Shown here piece by piece: positions 4,882-9,620 of a stretch of DNA of 40,827 nt (positions are counted from its first letter, which is position 1; each line of letters starts with the position of its first letter). Below the pieces are notes generated by a model. That model searched no databases. It was not told the origin of the DNA and saw nothing but the letters and a program-made list of their open reading frames with translations. The stretch comes from Actinomycetaceae bacterium (lineage in GTDB: Bacteria; Actinomycetota; Actinomycetes; Actinomycetales; Actinomycetaceae), in contig JAUNLN010000018.1 of the NCBI GenBank assembly GCA_030532245.1, positions 1 to 40,827 on the forward strand, read 5' to 3'. A program made the position numbers and the translations under genes.

Positions 4882-6633
4882 TTGACCACTACCGAATATT
4901 TTGAGACAAACCCAGGACGAGGCAACGTACCCGTGTGGTCTTCAACCGCAAAATCTGTGGTTTTGCACTACACGGTAGACGGCGAAGAAAAAACGCTCCC
5001 CATGCGACGCGAGGGCGGCTGGTGGGTCAGCCCCGAAGCGCTACCCGCAGGCACCTCCTACAGGTACAGCGTGGACGGAACTCTCGTTCCCGACCCGCGC
5101 GCCCTTCGCAGGCCCGAAGGCGTGCACGGCCCCTCCAAGGCGTGGGAGCCTCCCACTTTCAAGCCATTTGACGCGGGCAATCTTCTCGGCAAAGTGTTCT
5201 ACGAGCTTCACGTTGGAACATTCACACCAAAGGGCACGTTCGATGCGGCAATCGAGAAACTCCCGCACCTAGCTAGCCTCGGCGTGGAAGTAGTTGAGCT
5301 CATGCCGGTCGCCCCATTCCCCGGCTCCTTTGGCTGGGGTTACGACGGGGTAAGCCTCTACGCGGTTCACGAAACCTACGGGGGCCCCGACGGCTTTGCA
5401 CGCTTTGTAGAAGCCGCACACGATGCGGGCATCGCGGTTTGCCTAGACCTAGTGCTCAACCACTTCGGGCCAGTTGGCAACTACATTGCTCCGCTCGACA
5501 ACTACTACTCCGAAAAACACGAAACCCCGTGGGGCGCAGCCCTCGATCTAGACGGCAAAAATGCCCCGCACACCCGCTCCTTCCTGAAGGGCGCGGCCCT
5601 GCACTGGCTTCGCGACATGGGAGTCGATGCACTTCGACTCGACGCTGTACACGCCCTCGATGACGACTCCGACTATCACTTCCTAGCCGAGCTCTCCGAC
5701 GACGTTGCAAAACTCGAGCAGCAGGCCGGTAAGACGTTCACCCTCATTGCGGAGTCCGACCTCAATGATCCGATCATGGTCACCCCAACGGCAAAGGGTG
5801 GGCGCGGGATGGACGCGCAGTGGGACGACGACCTCCACCACGCCCTCCACGCCGCATTCACGGGCGAAACACACGGTTACTACGAGGATTTCGCGCCCCG
5901 CGAGGCCCTCGTCAAAGCATTTGAAAACGTGTTCTTCCACGCCGGCACGTACTCGACATTCAGGAAGAAAATATGGGGCCAGCCCGTAGCCGATGACGCG
6001 GATAGGCGACGTTTCGTGATCTCCTCGCAAAACCACGACCAGGTGGGAAACCGCGCCATTGGCGATCGTCCCTCACGCGCGCTTAGCGATGCCGAGCTTG
6101 CCTCGGTTGCCGCGCTCGTCCTACTCTCGCCCTACACGCCCATGCTGTTCCAGGGCGAGGAGTGGGCTTCACGAACGCCATTCCTGTTCTTCTCAGACCA
6201 AGAGGGGGATGAGGAAATGGCTCGCGCAATGCGTGAAGGCAGGCGCGCAGAGTTTGCCTCGCACGGTTTCGACTCGATTTACGGGTACAAGGTGGAAGTT
6301 CCAGACCCGACGGCTTCCGCGACTTTTGAGGCCTCGAAACTCGACTGGAACGAGGCCGCAGGCGAGACAAACAGACGCATGCTCGACTGGTATCGCGCGC
6401 TCATTTCTCTGCGACGCGAGTCTGACACGATCGGCGACGGAACGAAAATCCGCGTCGACTGGTCGGGAGATCTTCTAACCCTCCACCTTGCGAAGTTTGA
6501 CGTGGTCGTAAACTTCGGGCAAGAAGATGCTCCCATCGACGCGGATTCCGTGGTGCTCGCCTGGAGCGACGCCCCTACTGCAGGCGCACTACCAAAGCAC
6601 GAGGTAGTGGTTCTAAGAACGTCCGCGAACTAA
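4882..6633 (+). CDS. treZ: malto-oligosyltrehalose trehalohydrolase TreZ
   Basis: TreZ hydrolyses the alpha-1,4 bond next to the trehalosyl end made by TreY and releases free trehalose. The 583-residue protein has an N-terminal beta-sandwich (about 1-90) and a GH13 barrel. Visible motifs are VFYELHVGTFTPKGTF, GWGYDGVSLYA, region I LDLVLNHFGP, the nucleophile Asp254 in LRLDAVHAL, Glu291 in LIAESDLND, and Asp386 in QNHDQVGNRA. The start is TTG at 4882, 3 bp after the treY stop. No in-frame ATG lies near the N-terminal domain, so the weak start is believable and may lower TreZ relative to TreY. A short hairpin (TCCGAA/TTCGGA at 6634-6648) follows the stop but has no T tract. Confidence 0.95.
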   Translation: MTTTEYFETNPGRGNVPVWSSTAKSVVLHYTVDGEEKTLPMRREGGWWVSPEALPAGTSYRYSVDGTLVPDPRALRRPEGVHGPSKAWEPPTFKPFDAGNLLGKVFYELHVGTFTPKGTFDAAIEKLPHLASLGVEVVELMPVAPFPGSFGWGYDGVSLYAVHETYGGPDGFARFVEAAHDAGIAVCLDLVLNHFGPVGNYIAPLDNYYSEKHETPWGAALDLDGKNAPHTRSFLKGAALHWLRDMGVDALRLDAVHALDDDSDYHFLAELSDDVAKLEQQAGKTFTLIAESDLNDPIMVTPTAKGGRGMDAQWDDDLHHALHAAFTGETHGYYEDFAPREALVKAFENVFFHAGTYSTFRKKIWGQPVADDADRRRFVISSQNHDQVGNRAIGDRPSRALSDAELASVAALVLLSPYTPMLFQGEEWASRTPFLFFSDQEGDEEMARAMREGRRAEFASHGFDSIYGYKVEVPDPTASATFEASKLDWNEAAGETNRRMLDWYRALISLRRESDTIGDGTKIRVDWSGDLLTLHLAKFDVVVNFGQEDAPIDADSVVLAWSDAPTAGALPKHEVVVLRTSAN

Positions 6634-6657: not shown

Positions 6658-8889
6658 CTACAGTTTCGCCGGCGGGTACTGGCGGAAGATACGGTGGAAA
6701 CGCACGTCACGCAAAGCTAAGTAGGCGTCGCGTTTCCACTGCGATTCCTTCTCATTCTTCAGCGGGTTGTACATGAGGCCCTTGGCTTCGAGCTCTTCCA
6801 TCTTCTTGGCAAGCTCTGGGTCGTCCGTCCACTTCCTAGCAACAGAACTCGGCACGAGCGTGTAGAAAGCATTCGTCGGAGCGAGCTTAAGCTTCGCGCC
6901 ATTGCCGAACACCACGTCGTTCACGAGCACGCGCATCGGATTGATACCAGCTGCAAAAACGTAGCCCGAGTTTCGGCCGATTCTAGGATTCACTTCCAGG
7001 AAGTACTCCGTGCCATCTCGCGGATCAACCTTGATGTCGAAGTTCGCAAAGCCCTGGTAGTCGACCTTTTCAAAGAACTTCTTCACCTTCTCAAAGATCT
7101 TCTCGTTCGGGCTCGTGAGCATCGCAACCGGGTTACCAACGAGGCTCGGGCGGTGATCTTGCAGAGCAACCTGCGCGTGCGAGAGCATCACGAGGTTCCC
7201 CTTCGTATCCACGTACGCCGTGACCGAACGGATCTGGCTATCGCCTCCGGGGATGTATTCCTCCACCACGAAAGCACCCTTGTAGCCGTGCTTTTCGAGC
7301 TCGCCGAGGAACTCCTGAAGCTCCGGCCTAGTGTCGAAGTAGTAGACCTTGTGCTTATTCTCCATTTCGAGCTCATCGAACTCAGCTGAAAGCGCGGGCT
7401 TTGCAACGACGGGGAACGTGAGGTCTTCAGTGAACGGCTCGCCCGCCTTCACCTCAACGTAGCGCGCCGTATCGATTCCGACCTGCTCGCAAATCTGCTT
7501 GAAGCTCGCCTTATCCGACACCGCATCCAGCGTCTCACGCGATGGGAACGCACAGGCGTAAGCCTCGGGTAGCTCCTCACGAATCGTAACCACGTTGTCG
7601 ATCATGGCGTCCGCGTTCGTCATGAGGACGAGCTTCTTATCGCTGTACTTAGCCGCAACTTCGCGAAGAACGGCGAGCACCCCTTCAGGCGTGGAGGCGT
7701 CTTCGGGAACAACCCAGTCGATGAAATCAGACAGGGCAACCGCCTGCGAGGGCGCCTTAGAAATACACACGACGCGGGTGTCGAACTCGTCGTTAAACTG
7801 GCGGGCAAGCGCGTAAGCCTCAATACCACCACCGATGATGACGGGCATGAACTTAGTCTCGCGAGTCGGCTCAGGGGCGCGGTAGCGGGCTAGCTTGTCG
7901 CGAACATCGCGGCGCAACTCAAGCAGCGCAGTAACCGGGCGGTGAAGCGCCAGATCGCGGGCGGGGCGCACGTGCGTGACCTCTTCAGAGAACTTCGTCT
8001 TGAACTCGTTTAGGCCCATGAGCGTCGGAGAAAGGTCCGAGCCGATTCCCATCAAATCGTACTTCTTGCAACCGCGGTCACGAAGGAACAGGGCCTCCTT
8101 GTAGACCATCAGGTCGTTTGCGCGCTGGGCTAGACCGGCCTCATTTGTGGCCGCGTAGAAGCGCTGCGCACCTCCGTCTGACATGGTGAGGAGCGACCAG
8201 GCTACGAGTTTCCCATCCTCACGGGCGGCCGCCAGCAAAGCGTGCTCGCGCCCCAAGCATGAAAGGAAGTGCTCGAAGTATTCCTTCTTAGGCGGGAAGA
8301 AGCCGTCACGCTTCGCGGTCTCAAGCATCACCTCGTAGTAGGGGCTGAAGTCCTCGATCACCTCATCCGTCTCGCAATCGATTTCAAGCGTAGATTCACG
8401 AAGCGCCTTGCGAACATCGCGGCGGCCGCGCGCCTTAAACTTGCCCAGAAGCTCCTCGTCGTCGCCCTCCAGGTCGATCACCACGGTTGAATCGAAAGTA
8501 ATCGTGGAAATGATCGGACGCGTATCCCGCGCCCCCACACGCGTGTGAAGCCTCAAGAATGCCGCGAGAGGAAACTCCTTCTTCACCGTCTTGCGCAAGG
8601 CGGCCAGAAGCTCGTCCTCCTGCTCAGCCGTCGGCTCCTCCACCCACACAGGGCCACTACGCGCCCACAGATATTGCACGCCCGAAGACTTCAGCTTCGT
8701 CGCGTAAAGAACGGCAACGGTTTCAGCCTTGCGCCTTGCCACAAAGTAGGCGCCAACCTCGCGGTCTTCAGTAATAGAGTCAAGCTTGGCCCAAGCCCTC
8801 GTCTGCTCAACCGGCAGGGCAATGCCTGCGAGTTCTACGGCACGTTGGTACTGCTCTGGCCGAACACGGCGAACAACAATCTGATCCAC
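6658..8889 (-). CDS. FemX-type peptidyltransferase fused to an ATP-grasp amino-acid ligase
   Basis: This 743-residue protein combines two peptidoglycan interpeptide-bridge chemistries. Residues 1 to about 345 form a FemA/FemB/FemX domain that uses aminoacyl-tRNA to add residues to lipid II stem peptides. Its signs are the FKARGRRDVRKALRE block and the C-terminal GLNEFKTKF stretch. Residues 348-743 form an ATP-grasp domain opening MPVIIGGGIEAYALARQF, which resembles the carboxylate-amine ligase family that includes Enterococcus D-aspartate ligase (Aslfm). Lys497 in FPVVAKP is a probable ATP ligand, and Glu632 and Asn634 in LEVNPRIGR are probable metal ligands. The start is GTG with AAGGAG 7 nt upstream. 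Met348 falls exactly where a free-standing ligase would begin, so gene fusion is likely. The added residues cannot be told from sequence. The gene ends convergently with treZ, 24 bp away. Confidence 0.85.
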   Translation of the reverse strand: MDQIVVRRVRPEQYQRAVELAGIALPVEQTRAWAKLDSITEDREVGAYFVARRKAETVAVLYATKLKSSGVQYLWARSGPVWVEEPTAEQEDELLAALRKTVKKEFPLAAFLRLHTRVGARDTRPIISTITFDSTVVIDLEGDDEELLGKFKARGRRDVRKALRESTLEIDCETDEVIEDFSPYYEVMLETAKRDGFFPPKKEYFEHFLSCLGREHALLAAAREDGKLVAWSLLTMSDGGAQRFYAATNEAGLAQRANDLMVYKEALFLRDRGCKKYDLMGIGSDLSPTLMGLNEFKTKFSEEVTHVRPARDLALHRPVTALLELRRDVRDKLARYRAPEPTRETKFMPVIIGGGIEAYALARQFNDEFDTRVVCISKAPSQAVALSDFIDWVVPEDASTPEGVLAVLREVAAKYSDKKLVLMTNADAMIDNVVTIREELPEAYACAFPSRETLDAVSDKASFKQICEQVGIDTARYVEVKAGEPFTEDLTFPVVAKPALSAEFDELEMENKHKVYYFDTRPELQEFLGELEKHGYKGAFVVEEYIPGGDSQIRSVTAYVDTKGNLVMLSHAQVALQDHRPSLVGNPVAMLTSPNEKIFEKVKKFFEKVDYQGFANFDIKVDPRDGTEYFLEVNPRIGRNSGYVFAAGINPMRVLVNDVVFGNGAKLKLAPTNAFYTLVPSSVARKWTDDPELAKKMEELEAKGLMYNPLKNEKESQWKRDAYLALRDVRFHRIFRQYPPAKL

Positions 8890-9005: not shown

Positions 9006-9620
9006 GTGTTAGCCCCCGTTAGTACGCCTCAAAGTACTCCCCCACAGGAGTTCATAGACGCACTCCTCAGTTTGCGCCGCGTGGAACAAAAGGGCGGCAT
9101 TGAGATTGAAGAAGTGCCCGCCCCGCGCAAAATCGCGCCCTACGCCGCCGCGCTTCGCGCCTACACGCTCGCCGAAGAAGACGAGCTCCCAATCGCGACC
9201 GGCCGCTTTGTGATCCTCTACGATCCAGCGTCTCAACCCGGTTGGCATTCAAACTTCCGAATCATTGTGCACGTGCGCTCCCAAATGGATCCCGAACTTG
9301 GAAACGATCCCCTAATAGGCGAAGTTGTCTGGAGTTGGGCTCACGACGCCCTGGATGAGGCTGGAGCTAACGCTAAGGCGATGAACGGAACCGTAACCCG
9401 CGAACTGTCCGAAACCTTTGGAGGGCTCGAACTTTCCGGATCGGACGTGGAGATTGAGATGCGAGCCTCCTGGTCGCCCGGCACCTCGGACCTCGGCCCC
9501 CACATGGAGGCTTGGCTTCGCCTCATCGAACGCACCGCAGGCACATACATCGACGACGACCTAGAAGACACAGAAGACCTCTCTTTTAACCCCGTACCGC
9601 ATGTCAAAACCAATGGCTGA
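9006..9620 (+). CDS. DUF3000 family protein
   Basis: This 204-residue protein belongs to DUF3000, a cytoplasmic family of unknown function found in actinobacteria. Family-like stretches are ATGRFVILYDPASQPGWHSNF, PLIGEVVWSWAHDAL, GTVTRELSETFGGL and the ending MRASWSPGTSDLGPHMEAW. No signal peptide or membrane segment is visible. The GTG at 9006 is the start because a -10 box lies 6 nt upstream and no other start is close. The last 20 bp overlap the ATG of the RNase D-like gene. As I recall, the same pairing occurs in other actinobacteria, which suggests co-expression and perhaps a link to RNA metabolism; no function is shown by the sequence. Confidence 0.85.
   Translation: MLAPVSTPQSTPPQEFIDALLSLRRVEQKGGIEIEEVPAPRKIAPYAAALRAYTLAEEDELPIATGRFVILYDPASQPGWHSNFRIIVHVRSQMDPELGNDPLIGEVVWSWAHDALDEAGANAKAMNGTVTRELSETFGGLELSGSDVEIEMRASWSPGTSDLGPHMEAWLRLIERTAGTYIDDDLEDTEDLSFNPVPHVKTNG

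Follow-up and report, generated by a model that had tools for sequence, protein, structure and literature searches.

Domain organisation of the fused gene

The window analysed here is a stretch of 40,827 nucleotides, contig JAUNLN010000018.1 of the Actinomycetaceae assembly GCA_030532245.1, from a member of the Gleimia lineage. It carries one open reading frame (ORF) of 743 codons without internal stops, in which a Fem transferase domain is followed by a predicted Asl-type ATP-grasp ligase domain (Table 1). An earlier note on this DNA had placed both domains in one polypeptide, at residues 1-345 and 348-743, and profile matches in the two halves bear this out: the N-terminal half matches the Pfam families FemAB (40.6 bits; cut-off 24) and Acetyltransf_6 (35.7 bits; cut-off 22), and the C-terminal half CPSase_L_D2 (30.8 bits; cut-off 19.8) and ATP-grasp_3 (27.1 bits; cut-off 23.2). 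A search of PHROGs gave no match at E 0.001. The protein joins two normally separate enzymes, a tRNA-dependent one that adds L-residues and an ATP-dependent one that adds D-residues, and as judged from sequence comparison it probably builds mixed cell wall bridges. The domain architecture is new, while the component enzyme kinds are already known.

The fusion is genuine. A 743-codon ORF with the same architecture is found in two metagenome-assembled genomes (MAGs) of the Gleimia lineage that were assembled separately, Actinomycetaceae S30M_St_11 (genome G127, locus L050; 79% identical) and Actinomyces sp. AS08sgBPME_431 (G147, L051; 78%). Across codons 301-360, which span the junction, changes are mostly at third codon positions, with 11, 4 and 31 changes at positions 1, 2 and 3 relative to G127, and 10, 6 and 41 relative to G147. 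Given the intact gene in three assemblies and the third-position bias around the junction, a frameshift or assembly break near codon 348, by which the earlier note thought its reading could fall, was dropped. The architecture occurs in another actinobacterial class as well, no point in favour of two genes joined by a sequencing or assembly error was found, and the chance of such an error is negligible. The note's suggestion that Met348 marks the start of a separate ligase did not hold, as codon 348 is ATG in the window, GTG in L050 and CTC in L051.

In a survey of the same family, 187 of 200 genomes matched the protein, and three of the matches listed (window genome, G127 and G147) extend over residues 1-743; the matches were sorted by E-value, so that full-length ones are expected at the top. 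A phylum-wide draw of 396 genomes, with at most two candidates scored per genome, gave 26 genomes with a match at E 1e-50 or better, the window's own being the only full-length one among the matches listed.

The ligase half is a homologue of Asl-type enzymes

Comparison of the ligase half with three lactobacillar ligases by hhalign yielded a probability of 100% and E 1e-61 over 404 columns, and the motifs IPGxDS and GxxNxDxKxD...NxRxGR are common to all four proteins. Lys497, Glu632 and Asn634, the residues singled out in the earlier note, are in place; we take the latter two to be the metal ligands of the ATP-grasp fold. D618, K620, R636 and R639 are also present. In an alignment of 13 sequences, four of them Firmicutes ligases, K497, D618 and N634 fall in the invariant columns K150, D271 and N287, and the column of E632 holds Asp in two of the four Firmicutes proteins.

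The gene contexts of homologues found in a plasmid search point the same way. The Lactobacillus crispatus homologue (26.5% over 98% of the query, E 1e-34) adjoins an asnB gene, and that of Latilactobacillus curvatus adjoins a racemase gene (238.7 bits, TIGR00035) and lies near aspS; further homologues were found in Limosilactobacillus fermentum and Subdoligranulum. Passages of PMC4155827 describe AslA as an ATP-grasp ligase of D-aspartate (D-Asp) whose gene shares an operon with racD in Lactococcus lactis, AsnH as the enzyme that amidates D-Asp, and D-Asp as the substrate of the characterised Asl enzymes. On this comparison the C-terminal half is homologous over its full length to lactobacillar ligases that stand in Asl-type (racemase or asnB) contexts, and not a member of an unrelated ATP-grasp family, the finding that the earlier note had said would count against it. 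Its likeness to Aslfm of Enterococcus faecium and AslA of L. lactis runs through these contexts, the full-length homology and the common motifs; identity to the lactobacillar proteins is 22-27%, and kinship is drawn through them, Aslfm and AslA entering by description. Unlike Aslfm and AslA, the window ligase is joined to a Fem domain, has no racemase or asnB neighbour that we could see, and has D-glutamate (D-Glu) as its likely substrate.

The Fem half retains the invariant positions of the family

A profile of 18 Fem proteins, the window's included, matched the FemX structure 4ii9 at E 6.5e-32 with nearly the whole domain covered, and also matched structures of lipid II:glycine glycyltransferase and FemA; among the matches in the Protein Data Bank (PDB) are aminoacyl-tRNA-dependent peptide synthases. 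Lys297 of the window protein aligns with FemX Lys305, presumably the catalytic lysine, and the remaining invariant Fem positions are likewise kept. The coverage of nearly the whole domain and the equivalent of Lys305 are shared with FemX of Weissella viridescens and the FemABX proteins. Identity of the window Fem half to the 15 proteins of the Fem alignment (A2) other than its two fused relatives is 17-41%.

Table 1. Positions of the features discussed, in the window unless a locus is named
Feature	Position	Strand	Remarks
Fused ORF, Fem transferase and ATP-grasp ligase	6658..8889	minus	743 aa, GTG start
Fem (FemAB/FemX-like, GNAT-fold) domain, residues 1-345	7855..8889	minus	Pfam FemAB; FemX-structure profile match
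C-terminal end of Fem domain and linker, about residues 318-347	7849..7938	minus	linker comparison; internal start not conserved
Predicted Asl-type ATP-grasp D-amino-acid ligase domain, residues 348-743	6661..7848	minus	Pfam and alignments
Codon of Lys297, aligned with FemX Lys305	7999..8001	minus	invariant in 18/18 Fem proteins (alignment A2)
Codon of Lys497 (ATP-grasp lysine)	7399..7401	minus	invariant in ligase alignments A1 and A4
Codons 632-634, including Glu632 and Asn634	6988..6996	minus	ligase alignments and residue check
TreZ, neighbour of unrelated metabolism, locus marker	4882..6633	plus	TIGR02402, 604.1 bits
DUF3000 gene, neighbour on the other side	9006..9620	plus	PF11452, 192.1 bits
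Fem/PLP/ligase ORFs of 1193-1252 aa	L185 793-4407	minus	
	L186 3044-6625	plus	
	L193 1174-4932	plus	

The fusion recurs in an Atopobiaceae family

In 140 genomes of an Atopobiaceae family, 126 carry the ligase (E 1e-40) and 81 a Fem protein (E 1e-15), and the two-domain fusion is found in at least 11, a count from the matches listed that was checked on 30 fetched loci, so that more fused genes may exist. An 805-aa ORF of an Atopobiaceae MAG (L093) is 40% identical to the window protein over 738 residues. The fused Atopobiaceae-family proteins (L093, L139-L149) have the same domain order as the window's. In the 11 genomes, the fused protein is the sole Fem match (E 1e-15) and the sole ligase match (E 1e-40), whereas the fused Gleimia genomes have a second Fem. 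The earlier note knew of no described enzyme with this fusion, and we found no paper on one in the literature searched, although most subscription journals lie outside it and absence is not proven; the fusion itself, however, is not unique.

Split forms are found as well. In four further genomes of the family (G329, G333, G335 and G339), the Fem and ligase genes are separate but share a strand and the order of the fusion, with 6-15 bases between them, plausibly the state before fusion, and four genomes of one genus, perhaps Bifidobacterium (G475, G486, G583 and G604), also have Fem followed by ligase on one strand. Genes of the same two families, often adjacent and on one strand, are present in Actinomyces, Schaalia, Trueperella and Winkia, but they encode two polypeptides and mostly stand as a ligase gene followed by a Fem of the Fem2 clade, whereas the fused protein begins with a Fem1-clade domain. 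Lone ligases with a separate Fem are found in Gleimia europaea (G023, L052) and 'Actinomyces urinae' (G053, L053), which belong, like G127 and G147, to the genus of the window organism. Both forms for which the earlier note had proposed a survey of actinobacterial genomes thus occur, the fused one in three Gleimia and at least 11 Atopobiaceae-family genomes.

Phylogenies were built from 78 of 119 ligase domains and 69 of 79 Fem domains, with duplicates and near-duplicates left out. The fused Gleimia ligase halves are sister to the lone ligases of G. europaea and 'A. urinae' (100/100), and the deeper place of the Gleimia ligases is unsure (87/61). The fused Fem half falls in the Fem1 clade with Schaalia Fem1, Bifidobacterium and Atopobiaceae (100/99), outside Fem2. 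A topology with all fused ligases in one clade was rejected (approximately unbiased (AU) test, p 6e-39), and on this ground the idea that the fused gene passed once, and recently, between Gleimia and Atopobiaceae was dropped. One clade of Gleimia and 22 Atopobiaceae-family ligases was not rejected (p 0.31), so that an old transfer between the two may have occurred.

Occurrence of Fem and ligase in relation to wall type

We compared 37 ligase-bearing genomes, a hand-picked and non-random set from 80 ligase loci in named records. A Fem protein (profile, E 1e-15) was found in none of the 20 genomes of Cellulomonas (16), Actinotalea (3) and Pengzhenrongella (1), and in all 17 others, one or two each, from Oerskovia, Promicromonospora, Gleimia and other Actinomycetaceae, and Bifidobacterium. 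The bridges are ornithine (Orn) with D-Glu or D-Asp in Cellulomonas, Lys-Thr-D-Asp in Oerskovia and Lys-Ala-D-Glu in Promicromonospora. The comparison supports a division of labour between Fem and ligase, and together with the Asl-type homology it backs a predicted role in the wall and a mixed bridge in which D follows L, as the earlier note had proposed. The ligase with or without a Fem could become a genomic marker of wall type for uncultured actinobacteria: in genera with a D-residue-only bridge, the genomes examined yielded no Fem.

Published wall descriptions, as given in passages of the sources cited, bear on this picture: Orn-D-Glu is stated for Pengzhenrongella phosphoraccumulans and P. 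sicca (PMC11165906), the genome used here being that of P. frigida. For Gleimia the wall is given as A5alpha (PMC6113628), in agreement with the earlier note's expectation for Actinomycetaceae, and A5alpha stands for Lys-Lys-D-Glu in Winkia neuii and Varibaculum (PMC6113628), Arcanobacterium haemolyticum (PMC3035375) and Actinotignum schaalii (PMC5720513). For the Atopobiaceae family, bridges made of a lone D-residue are on record: Orn-D-Asp is given for Olsenella uli (PMC3035265) and Lys-D-Asp for Atopobium parvulum (PMC3035223). A passage of PMC2922099 assigns D-amino-acid cross-links (D-Asp, D-Glu) to ATP-grasp ligases and those of glycine or L-amino acids to Fem ligases.

Proposed function

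We consider it probable that the fused protein is a cytoplasmic bifunctional enzyme of peptidoglycan cross-bridge synthesis, whose Fem domain adds a tRNA-borne L-residue and whose Asl-type ligase adds D-Glu (or D-Asp). With aminoacyl-tRNA as donor, the N-terminal domain would attach an L-amino acid either to the stem-peptide lysine, at its side-chain amino group, or to an existing bridge residue. The C-terminal domain would convert a D-dicarboxylic acid to an acyl phosphate and ligate it onto a free bridge amino group. In the window organism the D-residue would most likely be D-Glu from MurI, resulting in an A5alpha-type bridge, and the second Fem of Gleimia would probably share the work; the fused Fem may add an extra L-residue or share the task. 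We infer both activities, the identity of the L-residue (most likely Lys), D-Glu over D-Asp and the order of addition from sequence. The protein would thereby be a concrete candidate for the enzyme adding D-Glu to actinobacterial A4/A5 cross-bridges, and the single gene would unite L-adding and D-adding steps that can be tested together.

Several observations weigh against this proposal. All three fused Gleimia genomes encode a second Fem, and hence the fused protein may make only part of the bridge; the earlier note's idea of one enzyme making a mixed bridge accordingly stands as far as its Fem and Asl halves go, but a whole bridge is not required of one protein. G. europaea and 'A. urinae' have one Fem (Fem2-like in G. 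europaea) and a lone ligase each, which implies that a Gleimia wall can be made without the fused Fem half. At E 1e-20 the ligase was not matched in four of the 11 Gleimia genomes, and thus the A5alpha wall given for the genus may not hold for all its members, or for the window's genome. In the Atopobiaceae family, 77 genomes have both proteins and 10 neither, but 49 have the ligase only and 4 a Fem only, one of these four (G305) by a partial match that runs into the ligase. The Cellulomonas contrast among the hand-picked genomes is largely that of one clade, and largely a between-clade difference; Oerskovia, which has a Fem, is nonetheless listed under Cellulomonadaceae. Trueperella pyogenes has one Fem match against a Lys-Ala-Lys-D-Glu wall, so that the number of Fem proteins does not simply equal that of L-residues, and Pseudoclavibacter sp. 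13-3 carries the ligase while its relatives have group-B walls. Finally, in the alignment with FemX, Asp37 and Pro200 of the window protein stand where FemX has Lys36 and Arg211. We take these FemX residues, by role and numbering, to be contacts of the UDP-precursor, perhaps specific to FemX rather than family-defining; their loss and the joined ligase set the window Fem half apart from FemX and the FemABX proteins.

The second Fem of the fused Gleimia genomes, together with the single Fem beside a lone ligase in G. europaea and 'A. urinae', would also suit an arrangement in which the ligase half alone acts on the bridge. The Fem half would then have no transferase activity and serve for docking or binding, the L-residue being added by the second Fem, as it presumably is by the Fem of G. 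europaea. We regard this as unlikely: the Fem half keeps Lys297 and the other invariant Fem positions, its changes are biased to third codon positions, and a search at E 1e-15 found no second Fem in the 11 Atopobiaceae-family genomes with the fusion.

D-Glu as the likely D-residue

The window genome, which is 89.75% complete, has one match to PF01177, namely MurI (TIGR00067, 223.7 bits). Given this sole match and the A5alpha wall of Gleimia, which is Lys-Lys-D-Glu in relatives, D-Glu is the likely substrate in the window organism, ahead of D-Asp; the genus wall type and MurI are the whole basis of this preference. No aspartate-racemase-like gene was found in the window, L050 or L051, racemases of other families not having been searched for. 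The absence of a D-Asp-supplying racemase adjoining the gene lowers the case for a D-Asp ligase but not that for a D-amino-acid ligase.

A ligase for D-Asp or another D-amino acid is nevertheless a minority possibility. D-Asp is the substrate that passages of PMC4155827 name for the characterised Asl enzymes, the search for racemases covered a limited set of families in an incomplete genome, and an aspartate-racemase-like gene neighbours several homologous ligases. The scan of all loci gathered placed such genes close to the ligase homologues of four Atopobiaceae-family genomes (G329, G333, G335 and G339) and of G550 and G636, next to a paralogue in Promicromonospora, and on a plasmid of Subdoligranulum. 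On the other side are the D-Glu-containing A5alpha walls and the lone MurI.

Genomic neighbourhood and Gleimia relatives

A scan of the surrounding genes identified housekeeping functions (trehalose genes, DUF3000, ribonuclease D, dxs and others) and nothing recognisable as a metabolite cluster; the gene caller is crude and misses genes in GC-rich loci. These surroundings bear on a possible non-wall role of the protein, such as one in a pathway where tRNA and ATP-grasp chemistry serve to make a small peptide metabolite. Fem-related and ATP-grasp enzymes are known from peptide metabolite pathways according to a passage of PMC2922099, and the PDB matches to peptide synthases would fit. We hold such a role very improbable, however, in view of the neighbours, of the separate Fem gene that stands by synteny at the DUF3000 locus in some relatives (e.g. 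L040, L044, L046), and of the occurrence of the ligase in genera with D-dicarboxylic bridges in their walls.

Among 11 genomes of the window genus, the ligase was found in 7 (E 1e-20) and a Fem-like protein in 10 (E 1e-10). The lone ligases of G. europaea and 'A. urinae' are 65-66% identical to the window's and stand at the same locus, flanked by the trehalose genes on one side and DUF3000/ribonuclease D on the other; inspection by eye of 330 bases upstream in three forward frames revealed no trace of a lost Fem half. In the Fem tree, the second Fem proteins of the fused genomes form one Gleimia clade within the Fem2 group. That of the window genome lies directly upstream of thrS (L032 9125-12276, minus strand), and a Fem beside the same gene cluster (cl5) was also seen in L040-L043, L045 and L047. 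Three Gleimia genomes (G077, G108 and G141) gave no match to the Asl-type ligase and encode two or three distant Fem proteins each, which suggests a bridge different from the A5alpha of the genus.

The loci L083 (titled Xylanimonas cellulosilytica 352_XCEL) and L084 (Sanguibacter keddieii 250_SKED), kept out of the wall-type comparison, bear names that look doubtful: their ligase and Fem genes have the lengths of those of Schaalia sp. ORNL0103 and Schaalia odontolytica.

Larger fusions with a third domain

Three Atopobiaceae-family genomes carry triple fusions. In G267 (1204 aa) and G232 (1193 aa), a divergent Fem is followed by a DegT/DnrJ-type pyridoxal-phosphate (PLP) domain and the ligase, and in G260 (1252 aa) the order is PLP, ligase, Fem. 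The PLP domain may make the D-amino acid. The recurrent fusion suggests a coupling of L- and D-adding steps. More tentatively, actinobacteria could have fused bridge steps repeatedly, as Fem with ligase and, in two orders, as Fem with DegT-like PLP domain and ligase, with the precursor handed from site to site and a whole L-X-D-Glu or L-X-D-Asp branch made per polypeptide. If true, multi-domain bridge synthases would be a small assembly line for the cell wall.

Separate PLP genes are present in 4 of the 80 named loci (L098, L106, L118 and L123; E 1e-10), and no homologue of the PLP domain was found in the window at the same threshold, the window genome beyond it not having been searched. PLP homologues near Fem and/or ATP-grasp genes were noted at these four loci and at L037, L179, L180, L183 and L184; their hosts include two Bifidobacterium, two Actinomyces, one Gleimia (G095, L037) and several others, and they are a possible third partner.

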